This document shows positions 3 to 42,347 of a stretch of 42,347 bases of DNA, piece by piece. The stretch is from the NCBI GenBank assembly GCA_903848275.1, contig CAINGB010000027.1, forward strand, positions 1 through 42,347, in the 5' to 3' direction. The stretch's first letter is position 1. Each line of letters begins with the position of its first letter. The notes under the pieces are model-generated. The model searched no databases, was not told the origin of the DNA, and was given only the letters and a program-made list of their open reading frames with translations. The DNA comes from Candidatus Uhrbacteria bacterium. Lineage in GTDB: Bacteria; Patescibacteriota; Patescibacteriia; UBA9934. Position numbers and translations under genes: made by a program.

Positions 3-2690
3 ACTTCCTACGACGGTACTTCATGTACCAGCTCATCTGGTTCATGTTCTTACAGCGCCGTTCAAGGTGGCGACCTGACCTTGGTCCTCTCCGGTCCAAG
101 CACTGGCGACATCCGCACCAACAGCCAGGATCAGACCCTTTTGGCCTTCACCATGACCTCAAGTCAGGAGTTGACCATTAAGGACCTCGACGTCATCGTC
201 TACGGTGACGACGACAACGACGGCACCGCCGTCGACAATGCTGATGACTCCAGCGACGATAACACTGGTCTTATCAACACTGGCGCCGAAGGTAACTTGA
301 AGGACATCAAGATCATCAACGTCGACACCGGCGCTGTGGTCATGGGTCCTCTCGAGCTCGACTGTGTCACCGTTGTTTGTGGTGCCGCTGGTACCCAAGA
401 CGCTGCTCAGACCATCGACTTCACCGATGACTTCTCCATGGCTGCAGGCACTGTCTTGCACTTGGCTGTCACCGCTGACGTTGACAACAATGTTACCAAC
501 CCAACCGCCTTCGCCGCTGCTATCGACATTTCCGGTCTCTCGGAAGAAGATGCCAACGGTGATGCTTTGAGCGCTTCTGACATCATCCCAAGCGGTGATA
601 TCACTGGCTACGACCAGACTGCTCGCGCAGCTTCGATGGTCATCTCATTGGGTAGCACCCCAGGCGACGTAACCTCCGTTCAAGGTACCAGCAACGTGTT
701 GGTCAATGCCTTCAACATGGTTGCCGGCCAGGGTGGTGACGTCAACATCTCTGAAATCATCTTGACCGCCTACTCGGATGCCAACGCTTCCGGTTCGTTC
801 GAACTTGGTGACTCAGTTACTCCAGCTATCGACGTCAACGACTACGTTACTTCCTGTTACTTGAAGGATGGCAACGGTGCCGCTATCGGTACTGCCAAGT
901 CCCCAAGCAGCAACGGTGAAACCCTCACCTTCGACAGCCTCGACTGGACCGTGGCCGCTAGTGCCGCCGCTCAGTTGAAGGTCTACTGTAACTTCAGCAA
1001 CCCATCCCTCGCTACGACCTTCCAGTTCGCCTTTGACATCGCCACTCCAGCTAGCGACGTAGTAGCTGAAGACGACGACGGTGTTGACGTCGACCCAACT
1101 GGTACCGCTGTTAACGGTGGTACAACACCAAACAGTGTCGTCACTTTGGCCGCTTCTGGTTCCCTTGCAGTCGCTGCAGGTGCTAGCCAGCCAACTGCCA
1201 ACTTCGTCCTCACCGGCAGCAGCAACAACCTCGTCGCTTCCTATCGCTATACTGCGACCAACGAAGCCTTCGAAATTCAGACCGTCTCCTTCTCTGAAGA
1301 AGCCGCTGAAGATGCTACTTACGGTCACAGCAACACCGGTACTACCGATGTTGAGGTCGTAGTTACCACCGACGGTAACGAATCAACCTACGCTAACAAC
1401 GTTTCCCTCGCTACTATTACCTACCCTAAGGTTGACGGTACCACCGGTACCAGCTCTGTCGCTTTGGTTGGTAACGAAGCCAAGTTCTCCGGTTTGCATG
1501 CCTACGCAGCTGTAGGTACGCCAGCCGACATCAATGTCTACGTTAACGTTCCAGCCACGGATCGTACCTCTGGTGGTTCTGCTACCAGCAACGAAAAGAT
1601 CCGCATGGGTTGGTTCGTTGACGTCACCAATGCAGACAACTTCAAAGCTGTCGGCGTCGGTTCAGGTACTACCTTCACGGACACTGACAGTGATGGTTCC
1701 GGCACAAACTACACCCCAGTTGGTGACGATACCGCCGACGGTATCAACGCCTTCGTGGTTCGTGAAGCTATGCCAACCTTCTCTATCTCTTCCGCTACAC
1801 CTTCCGGTTCTTCAATCGCTACATTGGGTGAAGTATTGCGCTTCAACGTCGCAGCTTCTGCCAACAAGGATGTGGTTCTCGAGTCCCTCATGTTCAAAAT
1901 CACCGCCACTGACTTGACTCTTAGTCACGCTGCCGGTGGTTGGGCGACTTGTGACACTGACATCAACGCTACCGCTGGTAACCTGCACACCAGTGAGTTC
2001 GAATTCTACAATCTCGACAAGAGCGCTAGCACCCAGCTTGATACTTCCAACAACACAGTCAATTCTAACGAACTTCTCAACACCGACTGGTTGGAACTCA
2101 AGACCACTGGTGCCGTCTGTGACACCACAGCCGCTCAGCTTGGCTACATTAAGTTGACTCTCCCAACTGCGGAAGTCATCCCAGCTGGCCACAGCTACAG
2201 GTACTCCTTGAAGGTTGACACCACTGGTGCTCTCACCGGTAGCGATTCCTTCCGTGTCGACTTGGTTAACGAGCCATTGGTTTCAACCTGGTTGGTACCA
2301 ACTGGCAGCAACTCCAACGAGGCTCTTTCTATCAGCGACACCGATTTCGCTGTCGACGCAGTCACAGACTTCTACCAGGGTGACGTAATCTGTTTGACAG
2401 ATGACGACGCCGTCTGTGGATCAACTGACGAACGTGCCTTGGTTGTTGCTTGTACAAACGCTACCGGTCTTAACGGCGGCAAGTGTACCTCCGGCAACCT
2501 CACTATCATTCGTGGTTACATGGGTTCAGTCCCAACCTCGACTGAGTCAACTGCCGACGAAGTTGCTCGTATGCCAGGCTCCCTGCTCTGGCAGGATGAC
2601 GGCGCTGCCGCCATCACCGATGCTACCAAGGAACGTTGGGGTGGTTACCTCGTAACCAACCTCGCCACCGGTGGTACCCTCGTCTACTAA
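3..2690 (+). CDS. Partial (5' truncated) large secreted/S-layer-like surface protein
   Basis: Frame is open to the window edge upstream of the TTG at 81; Thr/Ser/Asp/Gly-rich repetitive sequence; strongly biased codon usage; followed by a strong terminator. Confidence 0.7.
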   Translation, partial: TSYDGTSCTSSSGSCSYSAVQGGDLTLVLSGPSTGDIRTNSQDQTLLAFTMTSSQELTIKDLDVIVYGDDDNDGTAVDNADDSSDDNTGLINTGAEGNLKDIKIINVDTGAVVMGPLELDCVTVVCGAAGTQDAAQTIDFTDDFSMAAGTVLHLAVTADVDNNVTNPTAFAAAIDISGLSEEDANGDALSASDIIPSGDITGYDQTARAASMVISLGSTPGDVTSVQGTSNVLVNAFNMVAGQGGDVNISEIILTAYSDANASGSFELGDSVTPAIDVNDYVTSCYLKDGNGAAIGTAKSPSSNGETLTFDSLDWTVAASAAAQLKVYCNFSNPSLATTFQFAFDIATPASDVVAEDDDGVDVDPTGTAVNGGTTPNSVVTLAASGSLAVAAGASQPTANFVLTGSSNNLVASYRYTATNEAFEIQTVSFSEEAAEDATYGHSNTGTTDVEVVVTTDGNESTYANNVSLATITYPKVDGTTGTSSVALVGNEAKFSGLHAYAAVGTPADINVYVNVPATDRTSGGSATSNEKIRMGWFVDVTNADNFKAVGVGSGTTFTDTDSDGSGTNYTPVGDDTADGINAFVVREAMPTFSISSATPSGSSIATLGEVLRFNVAASANKDVVLESLMFKITATDLTLSHAAGGWATCDTDINATAGNLHTSEFEFYNLDKSASTQLDTSNNTVNSNELLNTDWLELKTTGAVCDTTAAQLGYIKLTLPTAEVIPAGHSYRYSLKVDTTGALTGSDSFRVDLVNEPLVSTWLVPTGSNSNEALSISDTDFAVDAVTDFYQGDVICLTDDDAVCGSTDERALVVACTNATGLNGGKCTSGNLTIIRGYMGSVPTSTESTADEVARMPGSLLWQDDGAAAITDATKERWGGYLVTNLATGGTLVY

Positions 2691-2721
2691 TCTAGACAGG
2701 TCATCACTCGGTAACGAACAA

Positions 2722-2755
2722 GAAAAACTGGCCTTCGGGCCAGTTTTTCTGTTAC
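2722..2755 (+). terminator. Rho-independent terminator
   Basis: AAAAACTGGCC-TTCG-GGCCAGTTTTT just after the surface-protein stop. Confidence 0.85.
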
Positions 2756-2800
2756 CAAAATAGTTGCCAAACTGTGGGCAATCCTCTAAACTACAGCCAT

Positions 2801-3523
2801 ATGATGAATCGCTTCTCCCACTTGGACAAACGTCAAAAAATCGCCCTTACCGCTGCCAGTGTCGTGTTACTCGCCATCCTCGTGGTCGGCGGCTACCTGC
2901 TGTTCCACCAGTCCGCCAGCAATAATGCCAACCTCACGTTGTGGCGCGAGACGCAAATCGATGACGCTACCAAAGCCACCCTCACCCAACGCATCGCAAC
3001 TACCATCGCCTCCATCAAAGCCAAGCCGTCAGACACCTCAGCTGTGGACCTGACCAACCTCTATCTCTCCATCGCCAACGACTCGTACATTCTCGGCGAT
3101 CTCGCCACCACGCGGCACTACCTAGAACTGGCTCTGAACCAAAATGCTCTAATGGATACTGCTTGGAACATGTACGGCGACGTGCTGAACCAGATGGGGG
3201 ACCGCGCCAAAGCGGAAGACGCTTTCAAACAAGCCATCCAGATTAGCCCGATGATCAAATACTACATGGACTACGCCGCGTTCCTCAAGCAGGACTCGCC
3301 AGCTCGTGACGCGGATCGTTTGGCCGACCTCCAGCAGGCCGTCACCGTGCTCGGTCAAAGCACAGATCTCATGGTCGCCCTCGCCGAATATTACAACGAT
3401 CACAGCGACTGCGCCGAATCTCTGGCGCACTACAAAGTCGCCGTCACCCTCACTCCCAAGAACCAAGCCATCAAAGACGACATGGCCATGGTCAAGTCCA
3501 CCTGCGTCCAAGCCACCCAGTAG
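2801..3523 (+). CDS. TPR-repeat protein with N-terminal transmembrane helix
   Basis: IALTAASVVLLAILVVGGYLLF TM segment followed by TPR-like helices (AWNMYGDVLNQMGDRAKAEDAFKQAIQISP); ATG at 2801 preferred over GTG 2774. Confidence 0.75.
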   Translation: MMNRFSHLDKRQKIALTAASVVLLAILVVGGYLLFHQSASNNANLTLWRETQIDDATKATLTQRIATTIASIKAKPSDTSAVDLTNLYLSIANDSYILGDLATTRHYLELALNQNALMDTAWNMYGDVLNQMGDRAKAEDAFKQAIQISPMIKYYMDYAAFLKQDSPARDADRLADLQQAVTVLGQSTDLMVALAEYYNDHSDCAESLAHYKVAVTLTPKNQAIKDDMAMVKSTCVQATQ

Positions 3524-3558
3524 CGCTCAGTAAAAAAAAAGTTTGGTCTACAAAAGTT

Positions 3559-3605
3559 TGGTCTACATTCAATGTATACATTGAATGTAGACCACTTATC
3601 CACAG
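3559..3605. repeat. P1 palindromic repeat copy 1 (36-nt perfect palindrome + CTTATCCACAG), left end of RAYT element 1
   Basis: TGGTCTACATTCAATGTATACATTGAATGTAGACCA is self-complementary; inverted relative to 4381-4427. Confidence 0.92.
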
Positions 3606-3706
3606 TACCAGCGTTGACGACAAACTCGATACGCGGTGCAATATATGTAAGCTCCCCAGCCTAATAGTGCTGGGGCTTTGTATTCAGCGCGTATTATAAA
3701 ATACGT

Positions 3707-4390
3707 ATGAGTCACGTCGCGTTTGGTAGTGGAGGTACTTATCACATCATGAATCGCGGGGCAGGGAAGCGGGACATATTTCTTGATGACATCGATCGTG
3801 TTCGTTTTACAAAAGGTCTACTTCTCTTTAACGATGAATCAACATTACCAATGGGCAGGGCACTCGTAGAAGCCTGGAAGAATCCAAAGAAATCCATCCA
3901 TCCACTAGTGAGAATTCTCGCCTACGCTCTCATGGATAACCATTACCACCTCGTACTCGAACAGCTTGTCGACAATGGCATTGCAAGGTTCATGCAACGT
4001 CTCGGCAATGGCTTTACAAAGTATCATAATAAACGCAGCGATAGAAAAGGCGTAGTTTTTGAGGCTCGTTACAAATCGGTCGCCATCCAAACTGAAGCAC
4101 AATTCTTGCATATTACTCGTTACGTCCACCTCAATCCGTACGACAAGTGCGACTACGCTTGGCGTCATGGCGAGGCTCGTTCACGCGACGAGGCCAAGGC
4201 AGTTCTCTTGTCTTATCCATGGTCGAGTTACCGTCATTATAAAGGTCTCGAAGTCAATCCAGCTGTCGACGCTTCTCCCGTCCTTGCCTGCTTTAACGAC
4301 TCTGCCGATTACGAAAACTTCGTTCTCTCCTGGATCAACCGTAACTACGAACCCATTCTCGGCCTCATGCTCGACGACGACTGTGGATAA
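3707..4390 (+). CDS. REP-associated tyrosine transposase (RAYT / Y1_Tnp, IS200-like)
   Basis: HIMNRG, MDNHYHLVLEQLVDNGIARFMQRL, FEARYKS, HITRYVHLNP motifs; flanked by inverted P1 repeats. Confidence 0.92.
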   Translation: MSHVAFGSGGTYHIMNRGAGKRDIFLDDIDRVRFTKGLLLFNDESTLPMGRALVEAWKNPKKSIHPLVRILAYALMDNHYHLVLEQLVDNGIARFMQRLGNGFTKYHNKRSDRKGVVFEARYKSVAIQTEAQFLHITRYVHLNPYDKCDYAWRHGEARSRDEAKAVLLSYPWSSYRHYKGLEVNPAVDASPVLACFNDSADYENFVLSWINRNYEPILGLMLDDDCG

Positions 4391-7744: not shown

Positions 7745-8425
7745 ATGAAAGTAATTGCCATTATTCCAGCCTACAATGAAGAGGCGCGGATTTTGGCTGC
7801 CGTGGCCGATGCTGCCGGGCACGTTGACGCCGTCGTGGTGGTCGACGATTGTTCGGCGGATGCTACTGGCGAGCAAGCTCTGGCCGCTGGTGCCTACGTC
7901 CTCCGCCATGTCATCAACCGTGGACAGGGCGCCGCGTTGCAAACTGCCACGGACTTCGCTGTGCGACACTTGGCAGCTGACGTCATTGTTCACTTCGACG
8001 CCGACGGCCAAATGCTAGGCAGTGAAATACCTCTCATGATCGCACCAATTGTCAGTGGGGAAGCGGACATTGTACTCGGTTCGCGCTTCCTGGGACGACG
8101 TCTCGCGTCGTCCATGCCTTATTCCCGTTGGCTTATTCTCAAGCTCGGCCTCATTTTTACCCGCCTAGTTTCCGGTATTAAAACGACGGACACGCACAAT
8201 GGCTTCCGTGCTTTATCCGCCGACGCAGCAGGGAAATTGCATCTCACCTTGGACCGCATGGCCCACGCCTCAGAAATCCTAGATCTCATCGTCGTTCACA
8301 AATTGCGCTACGTCGAGCGGCCAGTTACCATCCGTTACAGCGCCGAGACTCTGGCAAAAGGACAGTCCTCGCTCGGTTCACTACTCATTGCTGCAGACTT
8401 CCTCAAGAAACGTTTCCTCGGTTAA
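7745..8425 (+). CDS. Family 2 glycosyltransferase (polyprenyl-phosphate glycosyltransferase-like)
   Basis: VIAIIPAYNEEARI, VVVVDDCSADAT, HFDADGQ motifs. Confidence 0.88.
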   Translation: MKVIAIIPAYNEEARILAAVADAAGHVDAVVVVDDCSADATGEQALAAGAYVLRHVINRGQGAALQTATDFAVRHLAADVIVHFDADGQMLGSEIPLMIAPIVSGEADIVLGSRFLGRRLASSMPYSRWLILKLGLIFTRLVSGIKTTDTHNGFRALSADAAGKLHLTLDRMAHASEILDLIVVHKLRYVERPVTIRYSAETLAKGQSSLGSLLIAADFLKKRFLG

Positions 8426-8982: not shown

Positions 8983-10059
8983 ATGCCAAAAGTCGCCATC
9001 ATCTGGGTCTGCTACGGCAACCTCAAACACTTGCCGGAAGTCGTCGCCTCCTGGGCTGCTTTGTCATATCCTCGCGAATTACTCACCATCTACATCATCC
9101 CCGCCGCCTCACCTGACGGCATTGCCTCCGTCATCACCTCCGGCGTCCTGCCACGTTCCGGCAAAGACCTACCAAAAATCGTCATCATCAACGCTCCCAA
9201 CCGTGGCTTTGCGGCTAATTATAATCTCGGCATCACAGCTGCCCTCAAGGACGGTGCCGACTACGTCTACCTCCAAAACGGCGACCTCCGTCTCACGCCT
9301 CGCACTATCAACGAAGTCGTGTCGCTCGCCAAGACCTCGCCCCTCATCGGCAGCGTCCAATCCCTCGTTTGCTACTGGCATGACGAGGCTAAGGTCAACA
9401 CCTCGGGCTGTATGGTCCACCCCGCTGGTTATGCTTTTGCTCGCGACAACGGCCGCCTCAGGGCCGACCTCGACCTCCGCCGCGGCGAAGAAATCACCTA
9501 TTCCTCCGGTGCCGCCGTCCTCTTCAGCGCCGCAGCTCTGGCCAAAGTCGGCCTACTCGAAGAAGGCTTTTTCATGTACCACGAAGACGTCGAGCTTGGC
9601 CTGCGCCTCCGCATCGCCGGTTACCAGAACGTCCTCGCCCCGTCGTCGCTCGTCTACCACGACTACGTTTTCTCGGGCCGTACGCCGCAAAAATTTGCTT
9701 GGATGGAATTGTATCGCTGGCTTGTTATTCTCGCCTATTATCGCCTTCCGACCATCATCTTGCTCACGCCATTCTTACTCGCCGTCGAACTCGGTTCTTG
9801 GCTCCTCGCTGCTCGTGGCGCTGGTCTCGCCGGAAAATGGTACGCCTATCGCGAACTTATCAAGCCTCGCACTTGGAAACTTTGGTTTACCATGCGCCGT
9901 CGAGCTCAATCTCTGCGCACCGTTCCCGATCGCGCTTACCTTAAATTCTTTACCGGCAAAATTGAAGGCCAGGAAATATCCTCGCCTCTCATCGACAACT
10001 TCATCAACCCCATAGTCGACGCCATTTGGCGCACGCTGCGTTTACTAATTATATGGTAG
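8983..10059 (+). CDS. Family 2 glycosyltransferase (rhamnosyltransferase-like)
   Basis: IIWVCYGN, NAPNRGFAANYNLGI, EEGFFMYHEDVELGLRLRIAGY. Confidence 0.87.
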   Translation: MPKVAIIWVCYGNLKHLPEVVASWAALSYPRELLTIYIIPAASPDGIASVITSGVLPRSGKDLPKIVIINAPNRGFAANYNLGITAALKDGADYVYLQNGDLRLTPRTINEVVSLAKTSPLIGSVQSLVCYWHDEAKVNTSGCMVHPAGYAFARDNGRLRADLDLRRGEEITYSSGAAVLFSAAALAKVGLLEEGFFMYHEDVELGLRLRIAGYQNVLAPSSLVYHDYVFSGRTPQKFAWMELYRWLVILAYYRLPTIILLTPFLLAVELGSWLLAARGAGLAGKWYAYRELIKPRTWKLWFTMRRRAQSLRTVPDRAYLKFFTGKIEGQEISSPLIDNFINPIVDAIWRTLRLLIIW

Positions 10060-31940: not shown

Positions 31941-31974
31941 ACACAGAAGCCCGGCTTAAGCCGGGCTTCTGTGT
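31941..31974. repeat. P2 palindromic repeat copy 1
   Basis: ACACAGAAGCCCGGCTTAAGCCGGGCTTCTGTGT, perfect 34-nt palindrome; may also terminate pyrG. Confidence 0.92.
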
Positions 31975-32712: not shown

Positions 32713-32746
32713 ACCCAGAAGCCCGGCTTAAGCCGGGCTTCTGGGT
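32713..32746. repeat. P2 palindromic repeat copy 2
   Basis: ACCCAGAAGCCCGGCTTAAGCCGGGCTTCTGGGT; one compensated base-pair change relative to copy 1. Confidence 0.92.
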
Positions 32747-32795
32747 GATGTTCTGTTTTCTTTATGAATATCCCTCTTTAAGCTATACTCCCCTC

Positions 32796-38057: not shown

Positions 38058-38091
38058 CAAAAAACCCGTGAAATTAATCACGGGTTTTATG
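38058..38091. terminator. Bidirectional Rho-independent terminator
   Basis: AAAAAACCCGTGAAATTAATCACGGGTTTT. Confidence 0.85.
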
Positions 38092-38439: not shown

Positions 38440-38540
38440 TGCCCTCGCAGTCCTCGACGACATAACTCGTCAAAAATTATGAGGGCACCAGCAATCGTTT
38501 TCACGACTGCCAGTACGGGGCGACGGGGAAGAGCCTTCCC
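38440..38540 (-). ncRNA. Array intergenic structured RNA element R1
   Basis: H1 38440-38487 and H2 38487-38514 pair fully in minus orientation with G-U wobbles. Confidence 0.7.
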
Positions 38541-38556
38541 TCATCGCGAGTCGGCA

Positions 38557-39072
38557 CTAGCTCTCGTCGCCGAGCCAAGCCGGGTTCGGCTCGATGTCGA
38601 ACTCGTCGTCCTGGTCAACATTGGTACTGACCTGGCTGACGGCATCGCTGTCATCCTCGTCTGCCTCCGCAATATCGTCACCGTTACTGATCGGCTCGCG
38701 CCAGTCAGCACCCTGCCACTCATTGCGGTGCGGGACGTCGAGGCGCAGCTCAATGTCGCTGGCCACGATGTAGTCGTCAAGCATCTGGTTCTGCACAGCC
38801 TCCTTCTTGGTGACGATGAGGGAGTGCCCATTGGCCTCGGAGATGCAGAGCAGCCCCAGTTGGCTCAATTTCGGGCAGCTGTCGAGCGGCATCCACTCCC
38901 CAGTTGTCCTGCTGAAGAAGCCGATCGCTGTCTCATTCTCGGCATCATCAAACAATGTGAAGAAAATCTCGTGCTCTGGCAACGCGACATCGGCGAACCG
39001 ATGGGCTGCGAACAGAACGATGGCGGCCTGGGCGGCTTCGGTGGGGGAGAGGGATTTGTCGGGGAAGAACAT
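38557..39072 (-). CDS. Array small hypothetical protein 2
   Basis: MFFPDKSLSPTEAAQAAIVLFAAHRF; ends FDIEPNPAWLGDES. Confidence 0.68.
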   Translation of the reverse strand: MFFPDKSLSPTEAAQAAIVLFAAHRFADVALPEHEIFFTLFDDAENETAIGFFSRTTGEWMPLDSCPKLSQLGLLCISEANGHSLIVTKKEAVQNQMLDDYIVASDIELRLDVPHRNEWQGADWREPISNGDDIAEADEDDSDAVSQVSTNVDQDDEFDIEPNPAWLGDES

Positions 39073-39129
39073 GAGGGCGCACTCCGGTTGGGGGGAAAGA
39101 GACTCCGCGACATGCGGTGACTCGCGAAA

Positions 39130-39158
39130 AATATAATAAAAAAAAGCGGTTTTGTCAA
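39130..39158 (-). promoter_or_regulatory. Sigma70-like promoter TTGACA-N17-TATATT
   Basis: Reverse complement of 39130-39158. Confidence 0.82.
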
Positions 39159-39185
39159 TCAAAGACGGCATCTTGGTCTAGCTAG

Positions 39186-39280
39186 TGTCCTCGCAATCCT
39201 CGAAAATTCCTTCCAGGATTATGGGGGCACCGGCAACTCTTGCGAGCTGCTGGTACGGGGCGACGGGGAGGCGCACTCCC
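39186..39280 (-). ncRNA. Array intergenic structured RNA element R2
   Basis: H1 39186-39229; H2 39229-39254 with GCAA loop; H3 GGGGAG/CTCCCT. Confidence 0.68.
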
Positions 39281-39295
39281 TGGTCGCAAGGTCGA

Positions 39296-39805
39296 CTAGT
39301 CGTCGTCGCCGAGCCAGACGGGATCTGACTCGAGGTCGAAATAGTCGCTGTCGAAGAAGCCGCCGAGGCTGTTCGGGTTGGTCTGACTGGCGAACCAGCC
39401 GGACTTGTCGAGCCCAAGGCAGGGATCGAAGGAGTCGATCACGGCCTCGTCAGCGATGTCCTGGTCGGTCTTCTCGATCTCGTCATCGAACAAAGCCAGA
39501 ACATCCTCATCCTCACCGAGCGTATCGGCAACGGTGTCGCGATCCCAGGCTGGCAGCGTGGTCACGAGGAGATCGACGCAGCGCTTGCTGACGCCGATAT
39601 TGGTCGGGTCGTCGTGGTCATCCTCCTCGGTGCTGAACGTTGAGACGTTGCTGGCAAGGAGGGGAGCATCAGGCTTCAGGTTTGGCACGTCAGGGGACGT
39701 CTCGGTGATGTAGATGTACAAGCAGCCGCGCGGCAGGAAGTCGATGTCGTCATGGGATGTGATGATGGCGGGGGGGTGTTCAGGGGGACTGGCGGGGGTG
39801 AACAT
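39296..39805 (-). CDS. Array small acidic hypothetical protein 3
   Basis: MFTPASPPEHPPAIITSHDD; ends FDLESDPVWLGDDD, matching protein 2 C-terminus. Confidence 0.68.
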   Translation of the reverse strand: MFTPASPPEHPPAIITSHDDIDFLPRGCLYIYITETSPDVPNLKPDAPLLASNVSTFSTEEDDHDDPTNIGVSKRCVDLLVTTLPAWDRDTVADTLGEDEDVLALFDDEIEKTDQDIADEAVIDSFDPCLGLDKSGWFASQTNPNSLGGFFDSDYFDLESDPVWLGDDD

Positions 39806-39859
39806 TGAACGTACTCCAACTTGGAAAGAGACGCAGCGGAACTGCAGCGACTCGCGAAA

Positions 39860-39888
39860 ATAATAGCAAAAAAAGACGTTTTTGTCAA
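39860..39888 (-). promoter_or_regulatory. Sigma70-like promoter TTGACA-N17-TATTAT
   Basis: Reverse complement of 39860-39888. Confidence 0.82.
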
Positions 39889-39905
39889 TGTAATTAGTCA
39901 CAAAT

Positions 39906-39944
39906 CAAAAAACCAGTGGGAGAGAGATCCACTGGTCTTTTGAA
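39906..39944 (-). terminator. Rho-independent terminator of upstream array operon
   Basis: Minus strand ACCAGTGGATCTCTCTCCCACTGGTTTTTTG. Confidence 0.82.
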
Positions 39945-40004
39945 TTGTGCCCGACTTCGTAGTCGGACACCGGTTTGCCACGTCGGTCAAGACTGACTAT
40001 GGCG

Positions 40005-40298
40005 CTACGCCTGCGGCACGAGATTGATCCTCATGATGACCGGCGGCGGACGACGTTGATGGAGGGCCATGATCGCCTCGTTGACGATGTCCTGCAGGTT
40101 ACCTCCGCGCTGCTTGGCGCGACGTTGCCTGATGTCGTTCACGATCTCACGCTCGATGGCCGCCACGGCGAAGAAGTCGCGCGTGACATAGGCCTGCTTC
40201 ATCTTCAGGCCCGGCAGAGCGTCCGGCAAGATGTTGGCGTACGAGTGGATGGCCAGGATGCCACCCTCGAAGGTGGCCAGGTAGATGATCCAGGGCAT
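40005..40298 (-). CDS. Array small hypothetical protein 4
   Basis: MPWIIYLATFEGGILAIHSYANILPDALPG; AGGAGG Shine-Dalgarno. Confidence 0.72.
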   Translation of the reverse strand: MPWIIYLATFEGGILAIHSYANILPDALPGLKMKQAYVTRDFFAVAAIEREIVNDIRQRRAKQRGGNLQDIVNEAIMALHQRRPPPVIMRINLVPQA

Positions 40299-40308
40299 GG
40301 CTGACCTC

Positions 40309-40518
40309 CTAGTAGCGGAAGTTGACGTGACGGCCACCGCGCCGGGCCGCCTGGGCCTGAGCCGCGACGTCGGCCGGACCGGGGACGTAGCTGTCGTCCG
40401 GCTCGTACTCGTCGCCCTCCTCGAGCCAGTCCTCGCTGTCGCACATCAGGTGCACGGCGAGGAGCATGGTGGAACGGAGCAGATCATCTGCTCGCAGTTG
40501 GGTCTGGGTAGAAGACAT
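40309..40518 (-). CDS. Array small hypothetical protein 5
   Basis: MSSTQTQLRADDLLRSTMLLAVHLM; AGAGGT Shine-Dalgarno. Confidence 0.65.
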   Translation of the reverse strand: MSSTQTQLRADDLLRSTMLLAVHLMCDSEDWLEEGDEYEPDDSYVPGPADVAAQAQAARRGGRHVNFRY

Positions 40519-40557
40519 GAGATGTACCTCTTGGTTTTGGTACAACGCTGTATGCGC

Positions 40558-40655
40558 TGCCCTCGCAATTCTCGAATTACTTCGAGAACTCTGAGGGCAC
40601 CAGCAATCACGTTCGACGTGACTGCCGTGCGGGCCGCAGGACGAACTCCTGTGGC
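40558..40655 (-). ncRNA. Array intergenic structured RNA element R3
   Basis: H1 with GUAA loop (40558-40599), H2 (40598-40629), H3 GCCGCAGGA/TCCTGTGGC (40633-40655). Confidence 0.75.
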
Positions 40656-41125
40656 TATTGTACGGAACGGGACCCAGGGCCGTAAAGCTCGCGCTGGATG
40701 AGCTGAACCTCGTCGAGTTCGCTGTCGTCCTCGCCCGGCAGGAGTGCTCGCAGCAGCTGTTCCTGCTGCTCCCTCACCAAATCCTCAGCCTCGAGCTCGG
40801 CCTCGGTCTCCAGGTGGTAGCGCTGCTCGGCGAAGAAGTCGGTGGCGACCAACCGCAGTTCAGTGATCGGCAAGTTGCCCCGCTTGCCACCCATTTTGCT
40901 CATCACCCAGATCTTGAAGGCCTCGTCCTCGAACGTGAGGCTGAGGCTCTCCAGGTCGAAGGTGTAGACGATCCGGCGGACATTCTTGCCGGCCAGCTTG
41001 ACCGCGAAGGTCGCGATGGCCAGCTCGGCACCGGGGCTGACGCTGAGCTTGCGCTTGCTCCGCGGCTCGATGTCGAACCGCAAGTTGGGCGGCGGGGACT
41101 GAAAAAGCTTCTGTGTGATGGTCAT
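40655..41125 (-). CDS. Array small hypothetical protein 6
   Basis: MTITQKLFQSPPPNLRFDIEPRSKRKLSVSPGAELAIATFAVKLAG; AAGAGGT Shine-Dalgarno. Confidence 0.7.
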   Translation of the reverse strand: MTITQKLFQSPPPNLRFDIEPRSKRKLSVSPGAELAIATFAVKLAGKNVRRIVYTFDLESLSLTFEDEAFKIWVMSKMGGKRGNLPITELRLVATDFFAEQRYHLETEAELEAEDLVREQQEQLLRALLPGEDDSELDEVQLIQRELYGPGSRSVQ

Positions 41126-41160
41126 GTTTACCTCTTGGTTTGGCACAACGCTGTATGCGA

Positions 41161-41263
41161 TGCCCTCGCAATCCTCGAATCACTTCTAGAACTCTGAGGG
41201 TACCGCCGGCCGAATGTGAGTTCGACCGGAGGGTACGAGCTGAAAGACGAAACTCTTTCAGCT
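41161..41263 (-). ncRNA. Array intergenic structured RNA element R4
   Basis: H1 41161-41202 with GUGA loop; H2 CCGGUCGAA/UUCGGCCGG; H3 AGCTGAAAG/CTTTCAGCT. Confidence 0.75.
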
Positions 41264-41273
41264 ATAGTCACGA

Positions 41274-41678
41274 CTACTCGTCACTGCCCGAGCTGTAGCA
41301 GACGCCGATGAGCTCGTCCAAACCGAGCAAACGACGTGTCTTGTTGACCTGGGCGTTGTAGTCAGCCGCCGATTCATGTCTGATGACCTCGCGCATGCTC
41401 TCGATGAGGCAGCCGCCACTGTCGCCGGCCAGCCTCGAGGCCACGAGCCCCAACGCCGTCACGCCGACGCAGTGCTCGTTGCTGCCGACGGGCCAGCGGT
41501 CCTGCTCGGCCTCGTTGTAGAACGACAGCGTGGCGGTCTCCCAGCCGTCGGTGAAGTTCAGATAGAACATCACGTAGGGCCAGCTGCGGTACATCCTCGC
41601 GACGTGTGCCGTGATGACGGCCCGGGCGGCGATGGTGGTGATGACGTTGTTCAAGTTTCCGACAATGATCTGGGCCAT
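41274..41678 (-). CDS. Array small hypothetical protein 7
   Basis: MAQIIVGNLNNVITTIAARAVITAHVARMYRSWPYVMFYLNFTDGWETATLSFYNEAE; CAGAGGT Shine-Dalgarno. Confidence 0.7.
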   Translation of the reverse strand: MAQIIVGNLNNVITTIAARAVITAHVARMYRSWPYVMFYLNFTDGWETATLSFYNEAEQDRWPVGSNEHCVGVTALGLVASRLAGDSGGCLIESMREVIRHESAADYNAQVNKTRRLLGLDELIGVCYSSGSDE

Positions 41679-41723
41679 GAAAAACCTCTGGGTTGAGTGT
41701 TGTTTGTTAGAGCAGTTTATGGC

Positions 41724-41824
41724 TGCCCCCGCAATCTTCGAAACTCAGTTCGAAAACTCTGGGGGCACCGGCAGCGAATTTCTTCACTGCCGGCACGGGG
41801 TACATCACGTCGTGCGCGAACGAC
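41724..41824 (-). ncRNA. Array intergenic structured RNA element R5
   Basis: H1 GCCCCC/GGGGGC (covaries with GCCCTC/GAGGGC in R1 and R3); H2 with GAAA tetraloop. Confidence 0.75.
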
Positions 41825-42185: not shown

Positions 42186-42245
42186 GACAAACCTCGTTTG
42201 GCAGGGGGTGGATTTCTCGAGCACCGCAGGGGATACTCGCTGCTA

Positions 42246-42274
42246 ATAATAGCAAAAAAACGCCTCTTTGTCAA
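42246..42274 (-). promoter_or_regulatory. Sigma70-like promoter TTGACA-N17-TATTAT
   Basis: Reverse complement of 42246-42274. Confidence 0.82.
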
Positions 42275-42347
42275 GCCATTATCAGTACAAAACAGCTAAC
42301 TTTAGCCAAATAATATAGTGCCAGGTGTGTGCTAGGTACTACCCAGT

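Follow-up and report, generated by a model that had tools for sequence, protein, structure and literature searches.

The RNase III sites in the early mRNAs of phage T7 are irregular hairpins of ~20 bp with an internal loop, located between cistrons, and to our knowledge they possess no conserved core of the kind described here for H1. H1 is the conserved hairpin of an RNA element that occurs five times on the minus strand near the right end of contig CAINGB010000027.1 from a Candidatus Uhrbacteria bacterium (assembly GCA_903848275.1; order UBA9934 of the Patescibacteriota), which was analyzed over its full length of 42,347 nt and is called the window below. H1 shares the irregular ~20-bp hairpin, internal loop and intercistronic position of T7 sites of the R1.1 type (PMC8708148); the T7 sites differ in having no flush second hairpin, whilst cleavage of H1 is a prediction. 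In the cip-cel operon of Clostridium cellulolyticum, intercistronic stem-loops at the 3' ends of genes, mostly without U-tracts, set the transcript ratios (PMC4423207). These stem-loops of selective RNA processing and stabilization (SRPS) resemble the combination of H1 with its upstream partner, H2, in position and in the usual lack of a U-tract, but they are defined by folding energy and position and not by homology (PMC4423207), whereas H2-H1 is one conserved architecture across the order and beyond. The rRNAs of the candidate phyla radiation (CPR) carry intervening sequences; these short insertions sit at stem tips or stem bases of the rRNA, and some are presumed to be RNase III substrates (PMC11270868). 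One H1-like copy is likewise present in a 16S rRNA gene, but H1 is mainly found at gene ends of protein-coding arrays. In integrons, too, small genes of an array each carry an imperfect hairpin at their 3' end, the attC site; here, however, no integron integrase was found above cut-off, and the pairing is of RNA type on one strand. Thus, intercistronic processing hairpins are known, whereas a conserved family built of two such hairpins seems to be undescribed; the literature, with most subscription journals outside coverage, yielded no description of such an element.

H1 is a real, uncatalogued RNA family, found mainly in one order and in scattered members of the phylum. A first covariance model, of H2-H1, found copies in the genomes G004, G010 and G049, and a second one, of H1 alone, found a second array in the window's own genome (G000, contig C23) as well as arrays in many genomes of the order. 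The final model, designated R3 and restricted to H1, was built on 42 matches and detected H1 in 29 of the 73 genomes of the order (E <= 0.05), so that the search of other Patescibacteria proposed in the initial annotation of the window recovered it in many of them. In a sample of 380 genomes of the phylum, nine further genomes matched, with strong matches in G223, G365, G496, and G504; since the E-values are rough, some of the weak matches in a sample of this size must be due to chance, and that at locus L104 is doubtful. No match to the model was found in eight non-Patescibacteria genomes (~36 Mb in total), nor in G003, which belongs to the same genus as G000 and is 94% complete. Given this absence from a close relative, the small-gene arrays appear dispensable. 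With Rfam 15, no match above the gathering score was obtained in the window; over H1 in L011 and L033 to L036 there was none at E <= 0.5, and in further loci the only match was to small subunit (SSU) rRNA, containing the copy in L114. The model offers a searchable RNA family for a phylum with a nearly unexplored RNA biology, and H1 flags arrays of uncharacterized small genes that ordinary annotation misses.

In the alignment of 42 sequences, two-sided changes were found in 15 of the 17 pairs of H1 (146 cells in total), and the covariation score was 0.610, compared to at most 0.131 when the partners were slid. Because the structure had guided the fit of this alignment and element R3 was represented in one row by its opposite strand, 77 distinct best-strand matches were also tested against an R-scape-like null that takes the tree into account, and nine of the 17 stem pairs were significant (E < 0.05). 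Hence, the covariation on which the initial annotation had staked its proposal persists with more homologs. The only significant pair outside the model is the internal-loop position R.K (43 A-U, 18 G.G, and 7 A.C); the model treats it as unpaired, and its covariation can therefore not stem from structure fitting. H1 consists of a lower stem of ~7 bp, an internal loop ARAG/YUKC, and an upper stem of ~10 bp with a near-invariant GA/UCG step, and its core reads roughly C-ARAG-UUCAUGA ... UCGUGRRYUKC-G. No variation occurs in two A-U pairs (alignment columns 13-94 and 21-86). The minus strand had originally been proposed as the transcript because of G-U wobbles in the first copy, R1. R2 reverses the argument: it has two stem mismatches that read as A.C on the minus strand but would form G-U wobbles on the plus strand, so that the window alone leaves the strand unsettled. 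Family-wide, the argument holds, with 134 G-U vs. 35 A.C cells on the sense strand. Covariation with many homologs, the absence of Rfam matches, and this strand bias together support the earlier suggestion of an undescribed cis-acting RNA.

Model R3 excludes H2, and the counts for H2 are thus independent of the model. In 80 of the 93 non-overlapping matches, the end of a hairpin lies no more than 3 nt from H1, as compared to 200 of 600 random control windows (33%), whilst the same test on the downstream side of H1 gave 30 of 92. Where a hairpin was drawn, the gap between H2 and H1 was zero in 67 of 87 cases. Because of this adjacency, the element is a flush pair of hairpins with one variable partner, H2, and one conserved partner, H1. 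H2 is a strong hairpin and often has H3 ahead of it. The sequence of H2 is wholly different between genomes and is repeated within one array, as exemplified by the CCCGCAACCACTAGCACTAGCTGGTTGCGGG type.

All five elements of the window, R1 to R5 (Table 1), were found at the positions assigned to them earlier, each after a minus-strand stop codon and before the next minus-strand open reading frame (ORF). They fold as described, with minus-strand energies well below those of dinucleotide shuffles (z of -6.8, -4.4, -8.3, -4.1, and -6.5 for R1 to R5, respectively), and the internal-loop sequences and the compensatory changes in R4 and R5 were also confirmed. The description was too general in other respects: H3 is clear in R1 to R4 but weak in R5, and GNRA loops are present in some copies but are no family feature. 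The elements do lie between genes, as was implied by the gene-separating role ascribed to them, but R2 is directly followed by a promoter and thus also closes a transcription unit. The 3' end of H2 (GGUGC) has two alternative partners, the upstream GUACC or the base of H1 (GGGCA), both of which are kept in most copies.

Table 1. Elements, genes and predicted transcription signals at the right end of the window.
Feature	Position	Strand	Remarks
R1 H1	38440..38487	-	Conserved core; 42.0 bits with covariance model R3
R1 H2	38488..38513	-	Flush with H1
R1 H3	38520..38547	-	
R2 H1	39186..39229	-	36.8 bits
R2 H2	39230..39253	-	Flush with H1
R2 H3	39260..39287	-	
R3 H1	40558..40599	-	55.4 bits
R3 H2	40601..40627	-	1 nt off H1
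R3 H3	40633..40655	-	Begins within stop codon of upstream ORF
R4 H1	41161..41202	-	47.2 bits
R4 H2	41203..41232	-	Sequence rewritten with pairing kept
R4 H3	41238..41263	-	
R5 H1	41724..41767	-	49.6 bits
R5 H2	41768..41793	-	Flush with H1
Small ORF, 117 aa	41832..42185	-	Array paralog
Small ORF, 134 aa	41274..41678	-	Homolog in G001, 63% identity
Small ORF, 156 aa	40655..41125	-	Array paralog by weak similarity
Small ORF, 69 aa	40309..40518	-	
Small ORF, 97 aa	40005..40298	-	Last of first operon
Small ORF, 169 aa	39296..39805	-	
Small ORF, 171 aa	38557..39072	-	Array paralog
Small ORF, 92 aa	38137..38415	-	Last gene
Sigma-70-like promoter, first operon	42246..42274	-	11/12 matches
Sigma-70-like promoter, second unit	39860..39888	-	11/12 matches
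Sigma-70-like promoter, third unit	39130..39158 (-35 at 39158)	-	11/12 matches; just past R2
Terminator-like hairpin	39912..39936	Listed on +	Past last gene of first operon; minus-strand use suggested by U-run on that side
Terminator-like hairpin	38061..38088	Listed on +	A and T runs flanking both sides

A test based on codon periodicity placed genes beside H1 in sense orientation at 72 and in antisense orientation at 29 of 93 copies, and on both sides at 19 and 3, respectively. The median distance from stop codon to H1 is 66 nt, and that from H1 to the next start codon is 54 nt. In G+C-rich loci, a simple home-made gene caller based on codons misplaced genes to the wrong strand: when L071 was read, the real genes proved to be on the strand of the element, and the calls in L075 and L077 may suffer from the same error. 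At three operon-closing copies (L034:5104, L073:4785, and L083:4036), an ordinary terminator starts 9-12 nt past H1. The element is also used behind a stable RNA, the order in L101 being tmRNA, H2, H1, and a lipoprotein-like gene. Furthermore, an H1-like hairpin is located within the 16S rRNA gene on contig JAAXXG010000011.1 of Candidatus Moraniibacteriota (L114), where it extends what is presumably helix 40. A genome-wide pattern scan gave ten matches, nine of which look like chance by model score, the 16S copy being the only one that scores. Two matches from a pattern scan of viral contigs were excluded from the family by model score.

The function that we favor, and to which we would give an even chance, is that of a gene-end module on the coding strand for endonucleolytic processing and stabilization of 3' ends. 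An endonuclease would recognize H1 in the long transcript and cut it there. RNase III is the best candidate, given that H1 forms an irregular ~20-bp hairpin and that the window's genome has a gene for this enzyme (G000:C30:11387-12037, 223.7 bits). H2 and H3 would then shield the freshly formed 3' end of the upstream message from exonucleases, and the polycistronic transcript would thus be split into stable mRNAs of the single small genes, each with an individual abundance. The conserved core of H1 may be recognized by RNase III itself or by a protein guiding it; its conservation suggests a dedicated binding factor. H1 indeed has the form of an RNase III site, i.e., an irregular double-stranded hairpin between RNAs, whose co-transcription is suggested by spacing and promoters, and it is placed as SRPS stem-loops are, at 3' ends of genes in operons and mostly without a U-tract. 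As three promoters serve eight ORFs in the window, processing would have work to do. A module for processing and protection accommodates all the facts to be explained: the gene-end site, the coding-strand pairing, the lack of a U-tract, the H1 core, the replaceable H2, and the use after a stable RNA. If H1 is such a signal, organisms with minimal genomes would adjust dosage within an operon gene by gene, through a repeated RNA punctuation mark.

Several observations weigh against this function. RNase III is encoded in 67 of the 73 genomes of the order; it is therefore available but not diagnostic, and its nearly universal presence does not discriminate between explanations. Genome G045 (94% complete) has four H1 matches and no RNase III match, which could reflect an assembly gap. 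Known RNase III sites need little sequence, and the invariant pairs of H1 fit a specific RNA-binding protein at least equally well. Besides, most placements depend on the simple gene caller mentioned above, and the 16S copy is a single case among ten pattern matches that could have arisen by convergence in an obligatorily paired helix.

Alternatively, a dedicated RNA-binding protein might bind to H1 and thereby mark this set of mRNAs or regulate them (stability, localization, or storage), with no cut at H1, an explanation that we regard as possible but rather doubtful. The invariant A-U pairs and the GA/UCG step, the covarying non-canonical pair in the internal loop (A-U, G.G, A.C), the attachment of a single module to small genes that are otherwise unrelated, and its portable use after tmRNA and in 16S rRNA all argue for such a protein, but no candidate was found, nor any array-linked gene common to the loci that were read. 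In wider terms, we tentatively propose that H2-H1 may be a widespread mRNA tag of Patescibacteria, the H1 core of which would be read by a dedicated protein or nuclease on fast-changing small genes and some stable RNAs, together forming a post-transcriptional regulon in organisms whose genomes are very small. If H1 is a protein tag, a new regulon would be defined.

The H1 element is no intrinsic terminator: a U-tract follows H1 in only two of the 93 copies (L099 and L105), and the test against a terminator-only element that the initial annotation had set was passed. That the tandem hairpins act as terminators or attenuators without a U-tract, resulting in stepwise expression along the array, is unlikely. 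They are strong and lie past genes, and the copies in L099 and L105 do end in a U-tract, but true terminators come as a separate hairpin after H1, as seen in L034, L073, and L083, R1, R3, R4, and R5 have no strong promoter predicted immediately behind them, and a terminator does not need a conserved internal loop.

A role as recombination or mobile sites, in which the elements would act as folded single-stranded DNA to move gene cassettes, is quite improbable; recombination was already raised as an alternative when they were first noticed, and no positive support was obtained for it. A gene and its downstream element act as a unit, close species differ in gene content, elements and leaders recur in new combinations, and the outer stem pairs are strongly palindromic. 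However, the integron integrase model TIGR02249 gave only sub-cut-off matches to tyrosine recombinases, as it did in all 14 control genomes, and the roughly 4:1 excess of G-U over A.C on the coding strand points to RNA. The high sequence turnover of the outer stem argues against a fixed recombinase site. Read by eye with regard to attC features (R and L boxes with extrahelical bases and RYYYAAC/GTTRRRY ends), the outer stem ends of H1 vary freely. Finally, regulation of the downstream gene from its leader, by the translational coupling suggested earlier or in a riboswitch-like manner, would suit the median of 54 nt between H1 and the next start codon, but is hardly credible as a general function, because copies follow last genes directly ahead of terminators and R2 is followed by a promoter.

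The window is the entire contig C27 of the 985-kb genome G000 (48 contigs, 99.3% complete). The eight small ORFs near its right end, all on the minus strand, form three transcription units (Table 1). Several of the array ORFs in the window and in G001, a genome of the same genus, align weakly as one small protein family with the pattern PTxAAxAAIxxFVA ... LGLxA (relative to the first row of the alignment, identities are 20-24%, with one of 62%). The array proteins had no significant match in Pfam, PHROGs, NCBIfam, or the sequences in the PDB. For the protein encoded at 41274-41678, an α/β model was predicted from seven sequences with a predicted local distance difference test (pLDDT) score of 68, and a structure search of the PDB with this model gave no significant match. 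Scans of the window for Rfam families, tRNAs, and tmRNA were also without a match. In G001, a syntenic cluster past a pyrH-like gene contains fewer genes and two copies of the element. The three array promoters (39109-39158, 39839-39888, and 42245-42276) have a common sequence around their -35 and -10 boxes, TTGACAAA...TATTAT; two of them have the leader TCGCGAGTC in common, and a related promoter is present in G001. Elsewhere in the window, a palindromic repeat of ~34-38 nt (31941-31974 and 32713-32750) flanks a synteny gap after a pyrG-like gene and is also found in G001 (L011:14632-14665).

Second small-gene arrays within the same genus are located at G000:C23:1-6900 (L069), G002:C13 (L070), and G004:C20 (L035). 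Their intergenic regions consist of a few recurring modules, i.e., H2 types, H1 types, and leaders, in new combinations. The leader module CCCTTACCATGGGGTTT...AAGGAGGT precedes start codons in this second array, and another recurring intergenic module, GGCGCCTTGGTGCGTCGTGACGG...GGGTCGCAAACCCAACACCAA (L070:3724-3790, 7867-7930, and 9025-9090), can be drawn somewhat like a tRNA, whilst ARAGORN reported no tRNA there. In L036 (positions 900-4200, from G015:C20), an H1 array is located directly upstream of a match resembling the L10 leader, below the gathering score, and an rplJ-like gene. In L099 (positions 990-1545, from G223), the long-range complementary pair ACAGGTGATGTAA / TTACATCACCTGT brackets a tRNA-like gene together with an ORF of 48 aa; behind this region lies H1, with seven consecutive Ts. 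In L033 (positions 840-3330, from G049:C5), ~2.5 kb without a convincing ORF separates genes that by eye resemble queA and metK. This region, inside which H1 lies, folds strongly in many windows (z to -6, with one of -16), contains two related repeats of ~115 nt, and is possibly a large structured RNA.

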